DNA from: Ceratodon purpureus
Taxonomy: Eukaryota; Streptophyta; Bryopsida; Pseudoditrichales; Ditrichaceae
Assembly: GCA_014871385.1 (NCBI GenBank)
Contig: CM026433.1
Span: 3,050,474 to 3,114,473 of the forward strand
DNA: 64,000 bases
Direction: 5' to 3'
Of the stretch, positions 2,449 to 52,394 are shown one piece after another; within the stretch, counting starts at the first letter, position 1, and every line of letters starts with the position of its first letter. Position numbers and translations under genes: made by a program. The notes below the pieces were generated by a model. The model was given only the letters and a program-made list of their open reading frames with translations. It was not told the origin of the DNA and did not search any database.

Positions 2449-3394
2449 AAGAACCCAGTGAAGACTTCTTTGATGAAGAGAACTATGCATTTGAGGAGGA
2501 AAGGACTGGATGAGCTGTGGTGGCCTAAAGAAACAAATTTCAGTGTTGAAAAATATGACAAGAGGACTAGGAAAAGAAGTAGGAGACATGAGGCAGGTGA
2601 GAGCAGGAGAGGAGGAACGTCTACGGTGGAAGAAGGGGGTCAGAGCTTCGAAATGGAGGACGGTGCAATGGCTGCAGCCATGCAGGCGACGTAGCCAGGT
2701 GAGGACCGTTGGGGCGAAGGCGCTGATGTTCATGTGCGAGGAGCGGAACAGACTGTCGCATGACAGACTGTCAAAGCGGGAGAGCGGGGGAAGCTAGCAG
2801 AGCGCGGAGGCTTGGCGTCCACATCACAGGGGGTCGGGGAGGTATCCGGGATTGGGGAGGTGGGGGAGAGAGGTTGGGCGACGGCAATCAGGGAGGGTGA
2901 GTGCGGGTTGGGGATGGGGATCAGGGAGGGTGAGAGCGCGGAAATGAGTGGATACGGGCAGTGGTGATTTTTCACAAGGTCCCCAACATGTCCAGGGACA
3001 TGTTATGAAAAAAATAACATTTCCTGTGGATGGGTTCTCTGAAAATGAACCGGTTTTTGGACGTGTAAAATTCACTTTGGACGAGTTCTAAAAGTAAAAA
3101 AAAAAAATTGGACCATTTTTCCCAAAAAAGTGAATGATGCAAATATCAATTACATCATGTCATGTATGACATGTGAATGTGAACATAATGGAGTCAAATC
3201 ACTAATACCTAATCAAAATACCCATCTTCAAAAGCTTGATTCACCTGCACACATTAATTCATCAACCACAATATTTAGAACCTTTTAAGCACAATGTCAG
3301 AGATTTAAATTGAAGGTAATCTATGCAATTGTATTAAAATTAAGTTTATTTAAACATGTTCAATTTTTACCAAAACAAAAAAAGAACTTACCAT

Positions 3395-5818
3395 TCAAAC
3401 AAGTGGATGAATTCTCCTATCCTTCATGTTTTTCCAAACAAGCATCACTGCATTCCAATTGATGTTTTCAACTGGAATGTTTGCACATGAAATGCGCATC
3501 AAAGCATCCAAAGTCTCCAACTTCAAGGTAGTACGGAGATGACTCTTGATCAGGTTTTGTTTGGAAAAAACCCTCTCACATATAATTGCCGTGCTCACAG
3601 GAATCACCATAACTCTCCTCCACAAGTTACTCAAACCAGGCCAATTGATGGACAACTCTGGAGTTGTACCTGCAAACTCCCATGCTTCAAATAAAGACTT
3701 ATTTGGGATCATCTCTCTCATGGTCTCTACCATCTTTAAGCACTCACCTCAACACCAATCTTTTTCTGCTTCAGAACTCTGGAACTTCACAAATAACCTC
3801 TCCAACCATTCCTCAGTAATACGAGTCCTCTCCAACCATTCCTCAGTAATACGAGTCCTCTCCTCATCATCTGCAGGATAGAGATTGGGGCTGAAGAGCT
3901 TGTATGCATTGAAGATGCCTAAGTCTGGAAACCTGTTATTCAATGCATCCACCACCCTCTGCACATACTCTGCCCCAATAAGTCTGCACTCCTCAATAGT
4001 ACAAGCTCTCCCAGTAACACTCTCCAAATGCATTGGATAAGTTCTCATGCCACCATCTGCAACTGGATACTCCATCTCCATAGAAGTTGCACAGGTCTCC
4101 AAAAATGGCCACAATGCCTTTGAACCTCTTCCAAATGCTACACCTCTAGCTGCTAGAAAACGTTTGCTCAATATATTGATACAAATGTTTAAATGACCTC
4201 CAATCTGAGTAATATCCACATGGTCACTCTGAAATAGCTTATTGAGTTTATTCAACTCAGTAGGAATATCCACAAGTAACCGTAGAAGAAATTGAAACTG
4301 AAAGGATGTAAGTTACAATACCACATTTCTTCTTCTTCACGGAAAAGCTCCAGAAATGAGGGCATGCAATCCAGTACCCGCTGCATCACTTGTCCATGGG
4401 ATAACCATCGAACTCCATGTATGTAGAGAACAACCAATGGAGAAGCTGATTAAGCTGTGTCCGCCGTAATGATGACCTACCCACCCACGTGTATGCAAAG
4501 TTGGAGAAATCATCCAAAACCCGCAGCTCCGGTAACGCCTCAGCTGCATCAATGGCTGCCAATGCATCTCTAAACAAATACATGAATTAATAAGTGATTA
4601 TATTACATTCTAGAAAATAATGAAAGTCATAAAAAAAATCTTAAAATTAAAGACTCACCTAGGTGCAATGCAATGCACATTAATAAGTGTTGGTACATCT
4701 GCTCGAAGTCTGCGTGCTAGTCCTTCTCTCACCCCAATCATAGAAGCTGCTCCATCAGTAGCCAAAGCCACTAATTTCTCTAAAGGCCACTGGAACTCCT
4801 CCAGTAAATCCACTACATTCCTATAGAATACCTCTTCTGTGGCTCGTGGAACACCAAACAAACCAACATACTGCATACGTGGAGGGCCTAAGCCACCACG
4901 AGGTAAACTGCAAACATAAACAATCAAATGCTGCTCTAGACTACGATCGGTTGATTCATCTACAAGAAGAGAAATCACCGGTGAATCTCTAACTTCTGAA
5001 AGATCAACATCCTTCAAATGCTGTGAAATGGCCCACAAAAAATCATATGCAGATTGTCTACTAGTGTAAGCACCGTACTCATCATTGACAGGCATGTCTG
5101 GAGCCCTGAGGTGTCTAATTATCTGACACATACCCTCATACTGGTTGATAGCTCTATCATTAACTACCAAATGGTATAAAATCTTCATACAACATACAAT
5201 TCTGGCACTCTCTGCATCAATGGCATTTACGACATGTCTAGCCATGGCAACTGCCTCAGGGTTATTTCTCACCGGTCTCCATCTGAGCATGGCATGAGCA
5301 TGAAGGGTTGATCCTTCGTGCTCCTTCACAGCTGAAAGTTGCAATGATTCACAACCTTCTCCTCTAGTCCTCCATCGTGAGTTTTGACCAGCTGTTGTAC
5401 ATGCTGCACACTTCATGTAGGGCTTCTGTCTAGGGGGAGCAATGTGCATCAACCAGGGCCTTCCCTGACGCCATGCCGGCATAAACTTCCTCCTCCTTAG
5501 AGACCGTCCTCCACCACCATGAAATGGAACCTGTACTCCTACACTATCCTCATCATTTGCACTATCATCCAAATCATTGTCCTCCCCCATCTCAGTGTCC
5601 TCCTCAATGTCCTGATGATCTTGAATACCACCATGCTCTACCTCAACATTAGGCATACCACGTGGAGAACCCCTAACAGAGGATTCTGACAGCTCGGGCA
5701 CTTCATTCCTCCCATCACTCAAAGTTTGAGAAGAAGAAGATGGCCTAAACATATGGAGAATGCTTTGTTGTCGGGCATCTCTCCTCTGTCTGGGTACTCC
5801 AGACACTCGCAAAGACAT
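3395..5818 (-). pseudogene. hAT transposase (ZNF862/DUF4371-like), decayed
   Basis: The first exon (5818 to about 4656) encodes about 387 residues. It has a polar acidic N terminus, a C..C TTF-type zinc-finger-like segment (KCAACTTAGQNSRWRTRG), and an RNase-H-like core with LLVDESTDRS and LVALATDGAASMIG, whose aspartates fit the hAT DDE core. A donor GTGAGT follows HCIAPR, and the next exon starts near 4576 with DALAAIDAAEALPEL. Later blocks include GVRWLSHGQVMQRVL and a C-terminal dimerisation domain with STAIICERVFSKQNLIKSHL. Damage: a frameshift near 4420, another near 4290, and an in-frame TGA near 3746-3748. A 30-bp tandem duplication at 3797-3856 repeats ERTRITEEWL twice without shifting frame. 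Best match by eye is the ZNF862-like hAT group. Confidence 0.85.
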
Positions 5819-6289
5819 GACTATAATGCAAATTCAAAACACATCAATCACCACTCACATGAAATGCATAAATCCTAAATGTGTGACTTGCCCTAAACCT
5901 TAACTCTATGTTCATTCTTCTACACATTACTTGTTTAACACTTGAAAATGAGATGAAATAATAAAATGTTAAAAACCGTACCTTCAAGCACTTGCCACCT
6001 ATTGAAATCAAAGAGCTCAAGCTCAAAAACATGAGCCACCAAAAACCTGCGCTCCTGCTCACCACTGTGCACCACCCAGCCTGCAATTGCTGCAGCGCTG
6101 CTCTGTGCAGTGTCTATCGTAGGCCCGCAGCCCGCAGCTTGGCTCAACAGCCAGGCCGGGTCGGGCCAGCAGGCCGGGCCGGGTCCGGCCATGGGGCCGG
6201 GCCAGGTCGGGCTCTTGAGCCAGGCACCGAGCCAAGGTGCGAGGCACGGAGCCAGGCAGCGGGCCAGCAGGCCCTGTTTACTGAGCCAG

Positions 6290-42080: not shown

Positions 42081-45000
42081 ATGGCAGGAAACAATGATGC
42101 GTCTGTGGCTACAAAAAGGAACGTGCTCAGGGAGGAGGCCAATGAGGATAATGACGTTAAGGTAGTGGCCGCACCTCCCCCAAAGAAGGCTAAAAAACAA
42201 CCTAAGTTGAAAGAACCCAAAACCGAAGATGAAGATAACAAACGGAATTGGCTCGATAGTGAGGTTGAAACCTTAATTCAACTAAGGGGAGAAATGCAGC
42301 CGGAGTTCCAGAAGAATGCAAAAAAACAAGGTACTTTCTAATTCTTCTTCAGTTCATATGTGGAGTGCTTTCGAATGTGGTATCGCAGATGGTGCGGAAT
42401 AGGTGCACACACAGTAGCAGATTTGGTTTTAAAACAATTCGTGACGTTTCGGTTGACGATAGATTCCAAAAGTCAGGTGAATCTCAGCAACTGCTTATAA
42501 ACTAGAAGAGCTGCGTCTGTAGTAAGTCAACTTCATGAAGTTATCTACATTTTTATCACGAAGGTCGATCACAGCATACTTTCCAGAGACTCTACCTCTT
42601 TGTGACAGCGGAAAAGTCATAGCCCTTGAATCTAACTAGTAAATCTTTCTTGGAAGTTAACAAGTTCTGAGTTTTGGTGCTTCTTGTGTTTAGATTCGGT
42701 GTTTGCTTTTTAAAGCATGCCGTCGGTGATGTGTAGTGATATGAGTGTCTTGTGTCAAGTACACATTGTACAGCCAATGTCTTGTGTAACTATCGGCTCT
42801 GTTTGTGCACGCTTGACCCTCTTAGTGAAAGGTTGAAGTCTACAGGCATACCGTTTTAGTTTTTCTCCACCTGGGTTATTGATTGGTTCCATGTATCGTT
42901 TTTCGAACATCTGCTTGAGCATTTTATCTCTTCTTGAACAGTGTTTTGCAGTCACATAAGGAGGACGTGTCGTAGTATTGTATCATATTATTATTTGAAA
43001 CCGTTGTTAAAAGTTTCATTTGAATTCGGAGTCTGATCTTTCAGTTTTAAATGATGTTGAAAGTTGTTAGTGAATACATCAGTGACATATGTGTCGGCTT
43101 GTCCGAGTGAGGGAGCGAGTCAATTAGTGAGCTGGTCATGCTATTACTAAGGAATAAAGTAGTGAATGCAAATCTGGATTACTTCTTTTTAATGTAAATT
43201 CCATCTATGATACCGTGAAGTTGGAATACGGACATGCAGATCACATATAAGTGGCCTGTATTAAGTGATCTACATGAACTTGGCTGAAACTCATATTCAC
43301 GTACACAATTTCCATTCATAGTTCAAATTGCAAGTGGCTTGTTGCTTAAGCTTTCATGTTTACTTTATAATACAGCTTTCGGAACTTGGACTCTGTTTTG
43401 ACAACCTTTACTGGTCTTAGCTTCTGCTTCTGAGTCCATTGATGTGGTGAGGAGAGTCCGGGTGTTTTGTAATGTATCTGTTTTTTTTTTGGGTGTAGAG
43501 AGGCTTGCAGATTTGCCACTAATTAAATTGCAACAAGAGTAGGAGTCTCTACATTTAAATTCACAGGATGGGATCATTCACAGCAAATGTCATTGTTGTT
43601 TTGAACGCAACTGTCACTACTAGAAAATCAGGGTGTGAATCAACTAGTGGGGAAGAGAAGTCAGTTGATGTGGGGTCTTGAATCGGACAAGTTGATTCAC
43701 ACACAGGGAAGAGGTTTTACTTGATTTAGAGCTTGGAAATCTAAGTCCTCCACATGTGCGTCCAACGTGGACTTGCTGATGACTAGGATGATGACTCAAC
43801 ATATGACCGGGCAATCCGATGTGGCATCATCTCAAGACATAGATTTCAATTTAAACTTAGGGCGTAGATTTCAGTATATACTCAGGATGTAGATTTCAAA
43901 ATGAACTTGGAACATAGATTTCAATGTAAATTGATATATATATAGAATTTTTTTTATTTTCATTTTAGGCCAAATGTTGCACAGTAATAGATATGAGGTT
44001 TAGATGAAATGTCCCAATGGAATACCAATATGAATTCAAAGTGTCATCTTTATTTATATTTCATAATATGTGTACAATGAAGATTTTGGCATCATGTCGT
44101 TCAATCTATGTTCTAGCATACGTCTAATCTACAACATATCTAGATTCACTTGCCCTTTCTACAAAAACAGAAATGGCTGCTGCAGATAGAACAATATGCA
44201 CAATTAGACGCTATACAATTGTGGCACCGGAGATCCTAAAATATCCTAAACTCTCCTCCTAAACAAGCTTGAACAACGTGTTCACATCTCCAATTGTCGT
44301 AATCTCCTCAAACGACAACGTCACCTGAACATCCACAACCCAGAAGCCAGTCATAAGAGCTCACAACACCAACCACACCACCATGAACCCTACCACCGCA
44401 ACCTCTCTTGACATCCATGCTCCCACACAAAGTCCAGTACTGCTACTGCGCTTGCCAAACAACTCAAGCCAGCAATCCGAGCCGCAAAACAAGACTCTCC
44501 AACCGCCACGGCCGTCTGTCCATGTGACTGTCTGTGTGACTGTCTCGAAAGACACCAAAGACACCACAATTGCGCCCCAGAAATTCACAACAGAAACAGA
44601 GCTACTACCAGTACAGTACCACTCACCAACTTCGAGTCATACACTCTCAGGTTCACACCGTTGCTCGCCGCATTCTTGGCAATCTTCTCGGCCTTTCCTT
44701 CGCCCACCATCACCTTCACCGTGTCAAAGAATGGAGCAGATCCCGTCTCCAGCCCCAGCTTTCTCGCTCCCGCGCTGAACACCGCCGCCAACCCATAAAA
44801 TGTAATTTATTCCATAAAATGTAATTATGGAATAAATATATCAAGCATTCTTAGAATGAAAAATACTGATCACCCTCCGACTCCTAGACTCGAAGGCCAT
44901 ATTAAGAACCACTTTCGAAAACGGCTTGTGGTACTCTTCATGTACATTCGAAGCTCTAAATCTGATTACTTGACCATCCATAGAATAGCTTTCAATAACG

Positions 45001-48000
45001 ATTAACATGCACTTATAGACTCTCGTTCTCTGTAGCGGACGTCCCTGGTTCAAAACTATGAAGAATCAGACTCACCTTGTTGAGAGTACGCACTGCCGCA
45101 AAACGCAAAACCGGCTTAGATGAGCTCAAAAACAATTGCAATACGGTTATAGCGGGCGTGAGCTCTCTGCTAGTAACACCACTCAATTCCGTGATTGCAC
45201 GAGCAGCCTCAAACATGACCATATCTGTCTTGTTCCTCAGGCAGATTTCTAAGAAATCATAGAATGGTCTGTCCCCAGTCATTGTATTTGGCCCTGATTC
45301 TGCAATTACCTGAGGTCGTGTCCAATTTAAACGCCATTGTTAAAATCACTGATTTCTAATTCTTAGTCCTTCTGGGATGATTTGAAGGCAGTTTACTTGA
45401 TACAAAGAGACTCTTGATGTTATATGCGCAAAGAGCATTCAAAAGAGAGGTAACAGAAAGCTCCAACCATTTCAGTCGAAGTCCGGGAGGCATTCTACTA
45501 GATAAAACTAAACTAGTAATGTTGCTGTACCTGGCTTGTGTAGCGAATGAGTAGGCATTGGGCTAGGGGAGACCGTACGCTCCCCCTAGTAAGGCCGCTC
45601 ACCAACTTGCTTAGAGCCAATCGATCATTCTGACGGATCTGCAAATGACACAAAACAACATTACAAATGCAGTTGCAGAACTTAAAAATTGAGGCACTAG
45701 TCGATAAGAAATGCAAATATAGATATATGTTTGCCTAGATTAATGCAAATTAAAACAACAAATAGTATCACCACAAGCACTTCCAAATTTATATCTCAGA
45801 TATTCTAAAATGGAATCGTTTTGGTCAATTTTCTTGAGAACTGGCTCATCATGAACAAGAAAAACACGGGTACAAAAGAAACCAGACCTGATGAAGCAAT
45901 GCCAAACCGTGGAACTGGACAAGCGGTGCCTTCGATTGAACGGCCTCTTGAACTTCATTGCTCCATCGCTTTACGATCTCAGGATTGCTCTAAAAGAACA
46001 CATTTTACAAATGAGCGAAAGAAACATCATAACTTGATCCTTAAATAGCCATTGCTTGAGTGCTCAGCGAATAAAATGAAATTCGTAAAAAGTGATTTCC
46101 AATTCCAGGACAAACAAACGGAATTTAAAATTTAGAAACTGTTGCATGATGCTGAGAATTCGACAGTTCTACTCAGTCAGAACATCCTTGACGACATTGT
46201 GACGAGCTCAGATGTTAGACCACTAAGGAAGTTCCTGAGAATATTACCTGAAGAAGATGGATACCGCTGACAAGTGCAGCACTCGAGACAACAGGATTCT
46301 TGTCCACAACAGCCTGCTTAAGATACCGCTCAATTTGGCCTAATAGGCCACCATCGGTGATTCTGCACAGCACCCGTATGGCATTTGCGCGATAAAGGTC
46401 TGTCTTGCTGTTCATGTCCTTCATTAAAGAGCTTGTTACAATAATGACCTGCAACAGACCGGTGCTCGTCAATTTTCTGCTTGGCCTTGATTAGAAAAAC
46501 ACTGTTCGCGATGGTCGTCACACCCTCCGGTCCGTGGTACACTGCGTACATCGCCCCCATGTTCGCCAACAAAGCCTGCCCAAATGCGCAATGCCACACC
46601 TCAGTTCTTCCCGGCCATCACAAGCCAGCCAATTCATCACAACCGCAGGCCATGACGCTCAGACATTACTTAATTTCTTCAACCAAGCACAACAAAGAAC
46701 TAGAGTTCCTCAACATTAGTTCAACCAGCCACCCTCGCCAAGTCACCACCATCAATCAATTCACACTCACCTGAGCGGTGCAGATGTTGCTCGTCGCCTT
46801 GTCACGACGAACAAGCTGCTCGCGAGTCTGCATCGTCATTCGCAGGCATGGCTTTCCCGTTGCCCACATAACATCCTAAAAACCCCAAACTCTCCAGCTA
46901 ATCTAATCTCTCCTGACACAACAACACCTACTGCTCAAGCCGAGAATTCCACAACACCCTAGCCTTCACTTACATACATACACAGAGAATAAAAACCTAA
47001 TCATAAAATCCGAATTACTCTTTCATCCTGGTACCACAAACCCTAGAAAAGACTCGTCTGTGACGACCCAGTGAAGGAAGAGGTGAGGATGGGGTTGTGG
47101 AGAAGAGTAGACGGGGTACGTACCATGTGCGGGAGAGCTCTTCTACCATCTTGCTAGAAACGTTTCTTTTGTTGCAACTTAGGGTTTGATTCCAGGGTAT
47201 GATGAGAACAGAGCAGAGGAAGAGGGAGGACGTAAGGCCACGCGACTAGGGTGCTCTCTCCTTACCGTGCATCCTGGAATAACTTATGTCGATCTAGGCT
47301 GTTGGGTCGGTGATATGGTCTGTTCGTATCCACACTAATTGCAAAAAAATGTTTAAACAAAAAAATTACTTTCTGGAAGCTGTGAGCCTGTGAAACGGAT
47401 ATTCCAGCGTGTCTCTTAAGCTATGCCACGTAATCATTCCTCTTGGCTCTGTTAATTGTAGTTAGCACATTTCACTTGATCTTGCGCAGGCCCAAGCTCA
47501 TCAGTTGATCATTAGTTGTTTCAGAAAAATAACCAAGTGGTATACCCTGCCGCTGTTGGACCTAAGAGACTCTACTTGATTTTTACTTGATTTTTACAGC
47601 GTTTTCTAGTAGTGTGTCTGTACCTTGAGAGACGTGAGCCTAAATTAAAGTCCCTGTAATCTTTATAATTTTTGGTATCCCAATGGCATGGTTAACTTCA
47701 TGGTTAACTACCGTACGGGTCGGACGTAGCCCATTTGTAAAATGTCAGGGAATGTTTTGTCAGACACACTTGTAAGAAGTGGATGAGGTGGGTTTATGGT
47801 ATTTTGCAAGAGCTCGTAGGAAGTGCTTTCTGAAAATTTGAATACAGATTTCTTGTGTCGGTGATTTACTCATGCTTAAACCAGACTAGCAGGGGCAGGA
47901 TCGTCGAAGGCAACTCAGTGATAGTACTTTGCTTGTATTTCTTGGTTAGTGTGTTCTGAGCGTGAGAGTAGTCGCATTCTGCAGTGACTATTTGTTGGCT

Positions 48001-50228: not shown

Positions 50229-51695
50229 CTACTCAGATTCACTATCTACATCCATTCCCTCATCAAACGTTATTTTGCTTTCACTAGCTAGGTGCAACTT
50301 CCAAAAATTATCCGCCATCATCTCATGCTGAGTAGTAGCCTGTACTAACATCCTTTTAATAATTTCCTCTTTCTCTTTTTTAGATGTTGTAGATTTCTCT
50401 CCAGTAGTGTTTTCTAAAGTTTCTGGATCCTCTCCATCATATTGTAATAGTTCAGATTGCGGGGCGACTTGTGGAGGCAACAGTATTATTCGCATTTGCT
50501 TTATGGAATCTTTAGCAATATTTAGGTCTTCAACGTCATGAGATGCATTTTGCAAGTCATCGAATTGCTTGTCTGAATAATCTTGAATATCTTTTTTTGC
50601 TTCTCTTGCCCAACGCAAATTGAATCCATCACCATGTATAATGCACAAATTATGCAAGCAAATACAAGCTGTAACAATATCAAGTAAATTTTCTAAAGGC
50701 ACATCAATTCGTTTAAGAAGAATCCTCCACCGTCCTTTCAAGCATCCAAAAGCTCTTTCCACCGCCATCCTCGTGCTTGATTGGATGTAATTCCAATGAG
50801 CCTTCTCTCTTGACAATCCTTCCTTTACTCCTTTAAATGGGCTATAAAACCAAGGCCTCATAGGATAAGCAGCATCCCCTATTAATTTGTAAGGTAAATA
50901 ATTATCCTTCATAACATTTTGACCAATAGTACTTCTTTGAAATACAGACCAATCGTGACAACTTCCTGCCCATCCAAAATCAAAGTCCCAGAACTTACAT
51001 TGTGCATCCACAATACCTTGTAAAAGTACCGAGTAATATCCTTTCCGACAATAATATTCTGGAGCTTCCTTGCTTGGAGCCATAATCGGTATGTGAGAAC
51101 CATCAATTGCACCCATTATATAAGGTATACCTTTCAGAGATTCAAACTCATCAGATATTGTCTTCACTTTGCTTCGAGTCATTTTATCAATGACTATAGG
51201 TAACAAATGTTTTTTGATGGCTTTGCAACACTCTCGTACAATTACGGAGGTGGTGCTGGTTGCTATACCGTACAAGTCTCCAATCATAGATAATGTATTA
51301 CCAGTTGCAAGACTAGCAAGGGTAACCGCGACTCTAGCTTCAATGTTCACACTAGATGTCAAAGGAGTATCAATTTTTTTAATGCTGGGTGCTAGAAGGT
51401 CACATAGAAAATAAAAAGTCTCCTTATTGACCCTCATTTGATCTCGAAACATTTTATCAGTGTAGCTTTCCAACAGTTGATTACGTAAAAAACCTTGTTG
51501 TCTATTGTGTTTCCAAAGAGTCCTTGTCCGTGGCCTCGAGTCACCTTCCAACATTAAGAAAACCATCATAAGAATTGACAAGTCATTGGAATGCATGGCT
51601 GACTGCATACGAGTCAATGCACAATTCAGAACGCACTTGTATGCAAGAAGCAGCACGATGGACACCAACACTTTCTGTCTACGTGGTCTCGCCAT
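50229..51695 (-). CDS. PIF/Harbinger DDE transposase (HARBI1-like nuclease)
   Basis: A 488-residue open frame. In this superfamily the protein cuts and joins the element ends in the nucleus together with the Myb-like partner. Visible parts: N-terminal helical region, then VNKETFYFLCDLLAP and an HTH-like block (RVAVTLASLATGNTLSMIGD, then LYGIATSTTSVIVRECC). The DDE_Tnp_4 core follows: MGAIDGSHIPI (Asp about 198), FGWAGSCHDWSVFQRS (Asp about 248), KLIGDAAYPMRPW, and RMAVERAFGCLKGRWRILLK (Glu about 313), then ITACICLHNLC-like sequence (TACICLHNLC). The acidic C terminus is unstructured. No stop or frameshift breaks the frame and the triad is complete. It converges on the Myb gene. An alternative start a few codons later cannot be excluded. 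Confidence 0.93.
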   Translation of the reverse strand: MARPRRQKVLVSIVLLLAYKCVLNCALTRMQSAMHSNDLSILMMVFLMLEGDSRPRTRTLWKHNRQQGFLRNQLLESYTDKMFRDQMRVNKETFYFLCDLLAPSIKKIDTPLTSSVNIEARVAVTLASLATGNTLSMIGDLYGIATSTTSVIVRECCKAIKKHLLPIVIDKMTRSKVKTISDEFESLKGIPYIMGAIDGSHIPIMAPSKEAPEYYCRKGYYSVLLQGIVDAQCKFWDFDFGWAGSCHDWSVFQRSTIGQNVMKDNYLPYKLIGDAAYPMRPWFYSPFKGVKEGLSREKAHWNYIQSSTRMAVERAFGCLKGRWRILLKRIDVPLENLLDIVTACICLHNLCIIHGDGFNLRWAREAKKDIQDYSDKQFDDLQNASHDVEDLNIAKDSIKQMRIILLPPQVAPQSELLQYDGEDPETLENTTGEKSTTSKKEKEEIIKRMLVQATTQHEMMADNFWKLHLASESKITFDEGMDVDSESE

Positions 51696-52394
51696 GATTT
51701 ATAGATTAAACAATAAGTAAATAGTTATGATGTATATAGTTAAAAAATGATCACAAATAATATAATATGAAAATAAGATTTGAAAGTTCCAAAAGCATAT
51801 ATATATGTACGTGGAATTTTCTTTTTCTTGGAAAATTATATAAATAGATAGTTAAAATAAAAATAAAAAGAACATCATAAGTGATTTGACTATTTCTAAA
51901 TTGGATAACTTGAGAAATAGACTTTTCTCACGACATTATTCAATTTTATACATGTATGAATTTAATATGTGAAAGTGTATTCCGTTATGTAAACTTATGT
52001 GGAGGTCTATGATGTAATGTTATGTTTAGGTCTGTGTTATATATTTAGGCTGTTAGATATAAAAATATCATAATAAAGGCTTATTATAAAAAAGTAATTC
52101 AAGTTCTAAAAACATTAAGTACACTTTGTTTTATATTTCAATCAAAATCTTTAATTGCAAGTAAAAATTAAAATTACATTCTATTTTCAAAGAAATACAT
52201 TGTTGTCCTAAGAAAAGATGTCAATTTTTTACTTCACAATGACCACTTCCACATGAAACCGAACATTAACAATTTAATATACAGGTTCAAAGTATGTTTA
52301 AAATTATTTTTACATAATACATTCACACAACGTACCAAGAAAAAAACGTAATTCACATTTATAAACCATACAAAATCATAAATAATTTATAAAC

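Follow-up and report, generated by a model that had tools for sequence, protein, structure and literature searches.

How does a transposon without a transposase of its own come to carry pieces of two host genes, one inside the other, and where were those pieces taken from? The question is raised by a 4000-bp CACTA element at positions 43615-47614 of the window, by which we mean the whole 64,000-nucleotide stretch of contig C13 of the moss Ceratodon purpureus that was analysed here (coordinates without a contig name refer to it). By aligning related elements from across the genome (362 Mb searched), we show that 1,686 bp of a V-linked coatomer gamma (COPG) gene lie inside a fragment of a glycine decarboxylase P-protein (GLDC) gene in four dispersed copies with a single shared pair of junctions, and that elements carrying GLDC only are the older state of this Pack-CACTA. 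Overall, we regard the element as an ordinary member of its class whose history is unusually complete; no earlier report from its lineage was found.

Structure of the element and its cargo

As judged from its ends and contents, 43615-47614 is a non-autonomous Pack-CACTA, that is, an En/Spm-type transposon carrying host-gene fragments. Its parts are the following, with the evidence for each in parentheses.

43612..43614, no strand: left target-site duplication, TGT (sequence)
43615..43627, plus strand: terminal inverted repeat CACTACTAGAAAA (13 bp, exact)
43615..44267, plus strand: left end of the CACTA element, 653 bp (sibling comparison, motif count)
44268..44796, minus strand: downstream part of the captured GLDC (P-protein) fragment, exon and intron (DNA match to C10 loci, Pfam)
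44797..44815, plus strand: templated filler at the COPG junction, 19 bp (junction comparison)
44816..46501, minus strand: captured COPG fragment, 1686 bp, 4 exons, introns kept (ungapped match to C6:109665828-109667513)
45067..45312, minus strand: COPG exon, residues ~242-321, the alignment extending to 323 (protein alignment)
45528..45659, minus strand: COPG exon, residues ~206-243, the alignment beginning a few residues early, at 201 (protein alignment)
45885..45989, minus strand: COPG exon, residues ~173-207 (protein alignment)
46248..46451, minus strand: COPG exon, residues ~105-172 (protein alignment)
46502..46863, minus strand: upstream part of the captured GLDC fragment, with the exon ending in ...TSNICTAQ, an intron and a further exon (frames, Pfam, C10 match)
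46864..47614, plus strand: right end of the CACTA element, 751 bp (element comparison, motif count)
47602..47614, minus strand: terminal inverted repeat CACTACTAGAAAA (13 bp, exact)
47615..47617, no strand: right target-site duplication, TGT (sequence)

A preliminary description of the window had already named the perfect 13-bp ends and the TGT duplications, and both are exact at the positions listed. Matches to the 13-bp end with at most one mismatch are expected 0.11 times by chance in the window, and inside the element only the two outer ends are present. Genome-wide, the 13-mer CACTACTAGAAAA occurs 183 times (98 + 85 on the two strands), versus 22 times (16 + 6) for a reversed control. Among the first 100 places listed there were 16 pairs facing each other within 25 kb; 15 of them were examined. 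The 3-bp flanks match in 14 of 17 exact-end pairs, a set that includes the window element and one more full copy, and also in two more elements whose ends carry a single mutated base (16/19 overall). The first 588-621 bp of the left end are 91-93% identical to siblings with different cargo, and at least 12 left ends genome-wide reach 92% identity or more with that of the window element (41 matches; 40 of 105 candidates scored). The subterminal motif ATCAAST/ASTTGAT is found four times in the first 250 bp and four times in the last 250 bp, against a window-wide average of 0.14 per 250 bp and two occurrences in 2600 bp of cargo; it was picked after inspecting this element, and it is absent from 8/20 ends compared.

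Open frames of 180 amino acids or more are absent from the element, the longest stop-to-stop frame being 149 amino acids, and no transposase match was found among the seven cargo frames scanned with Pfam, the set to which that scan was confined. These results agree with the preliminary description, which had reported no transposase and a cargo of intron-containing pieces of GLDC and coatomer gamma. All seven scanned frames lie on the minus strand: three match GLDC (PF02347; 1.2e-13, 5.4e-8 and 0.012) and four match the adaptin N-terminal domain (PF01602; 1.5e-18 to 0.0037), and one of the COPG frames also matches solved coatomer gamma chains (4.5e-23). The downstream GLDC frame at 44585-44806 is weak (Pfam 0.012) and has no match among solved chains, and this region is assigned to GLDC because of its DNA match to the C10 loci. 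In total, the GLDC piece comprises 891 bp (element positions 654-1182 and 2888-3249), while the COPG stretch (element positions 1202-2887) covers four exons, residues ~105-321 of 890, with their introns. The two pieces point in the same direction, and neither crosses the CACTA ends. They are not side by side: the COPG piece interrupts the GLDC piece. The preliminary description was thus right about the presence of two host-gene fragments and had missed that one is nested in the other.

Copies, GLDC-only elements and donor genes

Three further full copies, 98-99% identical, are located at C6:2275726-2279718, C6:104634766-104638745 and C3:14686271-14690303. The resulting count of four, including the window copy on C13, is a lower bound, with 40 of 139 candidates scored. 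The 3-bp flanks match within each of the four copies and vary between them, and the 1.5-kb flanks of the copies have no mutual match at E 1e-5. Among the twelve 1.5-kb flanks of six elements, the sole match at this threshold is 322 bp at 71% identity, between a GLDC-only element (L017) and one of the full copies (L032).

Two elements, C6:3971520-3973808 and C6:100061637-100063935, carry GLDC only. Both lack element positions 1183-2887; outside this stretch, their identity to the four copies is 96.9-98.9% (by segment, gaps excluded). At the point of COPG insertion these elements read CCCATGCACTCTGTT, and both GLDC loci on C10 read CCATGCACTCTGTT. As this uninterrupted sequence is common to the GLDC-only elements and the C10 loci, the GLDC-only elements represent the state before COPG was gained and not a later loss. 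In a tree built from the ends that 11 elements have in common, the four COPG copies are set apart from all others with support 93, and the COPG copies together with the GLDC-only elements are set apart from five siblings of different interior with support 100; the relative placing of the two GLDC-only elements has support 56. Any two of the four copies differ by 0.65-1.25% in their COPG part, and one exon has amino-acid changes.

For COPG, the donor stretch C6:109665828-109667513 (L033) aligns without gaps at 99.1-99.6% identity across the four copies; over 1686-1687 bp there are 7 mismatches in the window copy (99.6%), 10 in each of L031 and L032, and 15 in L030. The exons of this donor gene go on beyond the captured stretch on both sides. 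The remaining COPG-like loci (one on C1, two on C5) reach 76-87% identity over exons. The GLDC piece is ~86% identical (84-87% by segment) to two loci, C10:1619890-1620768 and C10:1635232-1636100, which lie ~15 kb apart in inverted orientation. From these alignments, the C10 GLDC loci and the C6 COPG gene are the likely source genes of the cargo. The preliminary description had called for such a comparison of cargo and donors and for a genome search for related and autonomous copies; these yielded the donors, the three further copies with unrelated flanks and the long transposase-bearing elements described below, all in keeping with the Pack-CACTA class that it had proposed. Its expectation that neither fragment would extend past the ends was borne out as well.

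We take contig C6 to be the V chromosome, and the genome appears to be the male R40 assembly of Ceratodon purpureus. Searching with the coatomer gamma protein returned KC19_VG337300 of Ceratodon purpureus as the best match and M758_UG158900 as the second. The U and V chromosomes are each larger than 100 Mb in the 360-Mb Ceratodon genome (PMC8000587; here and below, statements from sources given by PMC number refer to parts of their text). Within the captured interval, the V and U COPG proteins differ at two residues, 254 and 268. The V residue is present at 268 in all four copies and at 254 in three of them.

COPG junctions and the proposed history of capture

In all four copies, the first COPG junction consists of CCCAT followed by AAAATGTAATTTATTCCAT and by donor sequence starting AAAATGTAATTATGG (L032 has one extra A nearby). 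At the second junction, donor sequence ending in GAAAAACA is joined to CTGTTCGCG, also in all four and without microhomology. Five GLDC bases (GCACT) were lost at the insertion, and no duplication flanks the COPG insert. The 19-nt filler combines two 11-nt copies of the start of the donor stretch, one direct and one inverted, which overlap by 3 nt; all 19 bases fall within exact matches of at least 8, which was equalled by 1 of 100,000 shuffles. Neither the donor stretch nor the 1.5 kb to either side of it contains a CACTA end (at most two mismatches), and between L033 and each copy the captured stretch is the sole shared block at E 1e-5. Considering the templated filler, the 5-bp loss, the lack of a flanking duplication and the lack of a CACTA end at the donor, we infer fold-back repair synthesis. 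Such junctions are what repair synthesis with fold-back would leave, unlike transposition of COPG or fusion of neighbouring elements.

We consider it very probable that a GLDC-bearing Pack-CACTA gained COPG by break repair with template switching and was then mobilised in trans. The element would have begun by taking up ~0.9 kb of GLDC. A double-strand break or a stalled fork would later have arisen within its GLDC part, and repair would have copied 1,686 bp of the V-linked COPG gene, introns included. A fold-back or template switch by the polymerase may then have produced the 19-bp templated filler, and the second end would have been joined without microhomology at a cost of 5 bp, as in abortive gap repair or template switching. 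Once enlarged, the element would have moved in trans by means of the transposases of elements with the same 13-bp ends.

Candidate sources of transposase are four long elements (15.4-23.3 kb) with identical 13-bp ends and matching 3-bp flanks. Transposase_21 (3.6e-59 to 8.7e-63) and DUF4218 were found in all three that were scanned (L020-22, L023-24 and L027-28), and Transposase_24 matches occur in all four, L025-26 included, of which only the one in L024 is above the Pfam cut-off and three are below it. Five of the eight long-element ends contain stretches of 52-111 bp that match an end of the window element at 76-83% identity, and one end, in L024, has the subterminal motif at 25, 76 and 105, positions shared by the window's left end, which has a further motif at 49. 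Among 1940 candidate transposases of this kind in the genome, 150 were scored, all above the cut-off, and none was found in 14 control genomes; with the L028 transposase as query, named relatives came only from flowering plants (30-37% identity). The window element was presumably mobilised in trans.

Several observations weigh against this history or limit it. The matching flank of the copy at C6:104634766 is GGG within a run of G and says little, and L017, one of the GLDC-only elements, has no matching duplication (TCT/CAT). In L030, residue 254 is U-like, which is one of the eight U/V-diagnostic residues in the copies. The junctions of the GLDC capture are unreadable because that capture is old (~14% divergence), and a templated filler alone fails to tell gap repair from replication-fork template switching. 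As for mobilisation, the subterminal motif is present in 3/8 long-element ends and absent from 5/8, and because of those five ends we leave undecided which transposase serves the window's family.

The published model for Arabidopsis Pack-CACTAs is tandem insertion (PMC8903248, PMC13317346), in which two related elements would have flanked the COPG stretch and moved as one hybrid together with the DNA between them. However, COPG sits inside the GLDC cargo, which is continuous across the insert except for 5 bp; both GLDC sides match one type of GLDC-only element; no CACTA end lies between GLDC and COPG or, as noted, around the donor stretch; the donor locus shares nothing with the copies at E 1e-5 beyond the captured stretch; and a templated filler is not predicted. 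We thus consider tandem insertion unlikely. With the GLDC-only structure ancestral, the model is refuted for the COPG capture; the older GLDC capture may still have followed it. The insert could also have been another mobile element that transposed into the CACTA element, and nested insertions do occur in the family (a 2.4-kb insertion in L012 versus L010). Host-gene sequence, however, borders the insert at both ends, a short deletion and filler mark the join, and among the 40 of 139 candidates scored no near-identical stretch turned up outside the four elements and the donor gene, making this very improbable. A nested transposon as the source of COPG was ruled out by the lack of a target duplication.

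Gene fragments are generally frequent in plant genomes, which is the sole point in favour of a cluster of processed or duplicated pseudogenes that came to lie between CACTA-like ends by chance and was spread by segmental duplication. Against it, the four copies share their end-to-end span and have matching, copy-specific 3-bp flanks with unrelated wider flanks, and we give this explanation next to no chance of being correct. Processed pseudogenes were ruled out since introns are retained, and hence reverse transcription was not involved; segmental duplication was ruled out since the wider flanks of the copies are unrelated. A different type of alternative is that the chimeric cargo has been recruited, as a spliced GLDC/COPG transcript or as antisense or small RNA tuning the donor genes. 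The shared orientation of the two pieces would favour this, as would a soybean CACTA element with five gene fragments that yields chimeric spliced transcripts (PMC1947982). However, no Ceratodon-named protein is among the best 120 of 372 matches to the spliced COPG piece (most matches are nameless, and the search was restricted to lengths of about 119-378 amino acids), and the pairwise differences of 0.65-1.25% between copies in the COPG part include amino-acid changes in one exon. We find recruitment quite unlikely, and the cargo most likely has no protein function.

Tandem insertion in Arabidopsis Pack-CACTAs was reportedly first put forward in 2019 by Catoni. The Tpn1 family of Japanese morning glory is said, from the title of a 2004 paper by Kawasaki and Nitasaka, to be En/Spm-related and to capture host genes; its host is a flowering plant, unlike that of the moss element. 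Pack-CACTAs are described in Arabidopsis, rice and maize, those of maize often with several donor loci (PMC8903248), which bears out the preliminary description's remark that gene capture by CACTA elements is known in flowering plants. Like these Pack-CACTA or Pack-TYPE elements, the moss element has CACTA ends, target duplications and no transposase, and it combines host coding DNA from several donor loci with low copy number. Unlike them as described there, it has one fragment nested in another and a one-fragment intermediate that was kept, and its COPG capture differs from the tandem-insertion model in having a repair-type junction inside the element. Tgm-Express1 of soybean (PMC1947982) is likewise a non-autonomous CACTA with several unrelated host-gene fragments; it has five fragments and chimeric transcripts, whereas the moss element has two, has its donors and intermediate located and is known from DNA alone. 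For animal elements with terminal inverted repeats (TIR), the gap-filling and FoSTeST models of Pack-TIR formation (PMC8277862) similarly invoke capture by template switching, with microhomology or short breakpoint insertions, followed by multiplication through transposition. The moss element differs from the cases given there in being a plant example for which both the donor and the pre-capture state are available, those models having been proposed for animals, with plants, and Pack-MULEs among them, left open by the authors. CACTA elements are abundant in Sphagnum (6.8%; PMC9946827). No report of a moss Pack-CACTA or of CACTA gene capture in moss was found among the open-access papers listed, which is weak evidence of absence with most subscription papers outside the search. 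Within that scope, nothing contradicts the earlier suggestion that the combination is unreported in what was suspected to be a non-flowering lineage, as a moss indeed is.

Gene capture by TIR transposons has mostly been argued from end products. Here, a pre-capture element, a post-capture element, a donor at >99% identity and a readable junction are available in one genome, so that the models become separable for this event, and a COPG donor on the V chromosome makes it a direct test of traffic from sex chromosome to autosome. More generally, we lean towards the view that moss CACTA elements gain genes stepwise, by repair synthesis within the element and not by fusion of neighbours, and that they have carried a fragment of a male-specific, V-linked gene to autosomes that females also inherit. 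If true, transposons would provide a way for sequence to pass from a non-recombining sex chromosome to the autosomes.

Sibling elements and neighbouring sequence

Other members of the family carry other host genes. Three siblings on C5 contain exportin-5 (PF19273, 6.8e-16 in L010, with the other two near-identical to L010), and the sibling C6:28240524 contains 2-oxoacid dehydrogenase E2 (PF00198, 6.6e-17). Their likely donors are C3:7801407-7803048 (94-95%) and C3:21250730-21252859 (91-93%), respectively. Each piece omits an inner donor stretch, of about 91 bp for exportin-5 and 690 bp for E2, with short or imperfect similarity at the break points, and a 10-base copy of donor DNA from close by may be present at the exportin-5 break. 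These omissions are template slips or later deletions, two origins that cannot be told apart. Relative to L010 (C5:13110374-13115903), L012 has the 2.4-kb insertion mentioned above inside its exportin-5 element, with a 6-bp edge repeat. The siblings L014 and L018 have a common interior of 753 bp (96%), in which lies an L014 frame that gave no Pfam match.

A 435-bp exportin-5 piece, 86-88% identical to the L010 cargo, is present at eight places (C7:11244958, C12:12889692, C11:7543450, C10:15840985, C6:10135083, C6:35381249, C13:286130 and C6:109202885). Four of these (those on C7 and C11, and C6 at 10.1 and 109.2 Mb) are ~1.2 kb or less from CACTA-like left ends with 71-77% identity to that of the window element. 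It seems that part of this exportin-5 gene was also captured, or passed on, by a second subfamily that is more diverged.

By eye, an extra MASWE- or MSSWE-like frame is present in three long CACTA elements (L023:1280-1792, L020:1216-1944 and L028:7855-8643) and in one shorter element (L019:1408-1920); the frames of L019, L023 and L020 had no Pfam match. In the element at C5:761782, a frame of the Orai/CRAC channel family (PF07856, 3.5e-8; L048:2825-3175) lies inside or just past a related CACTA left end. Elsewhere in the window, a 392-amino-acid frame at 4655-5833 (minus strand) matches zf-C17orf113 (7.5e-9) and is hAT-like by eye only, and a 489-amino-acid open frame at 50229-51698 (minus strand) contains a DDE_Tnp_4 domain (4e-32) and is presumably a PIF/Harbinger-like transposase.

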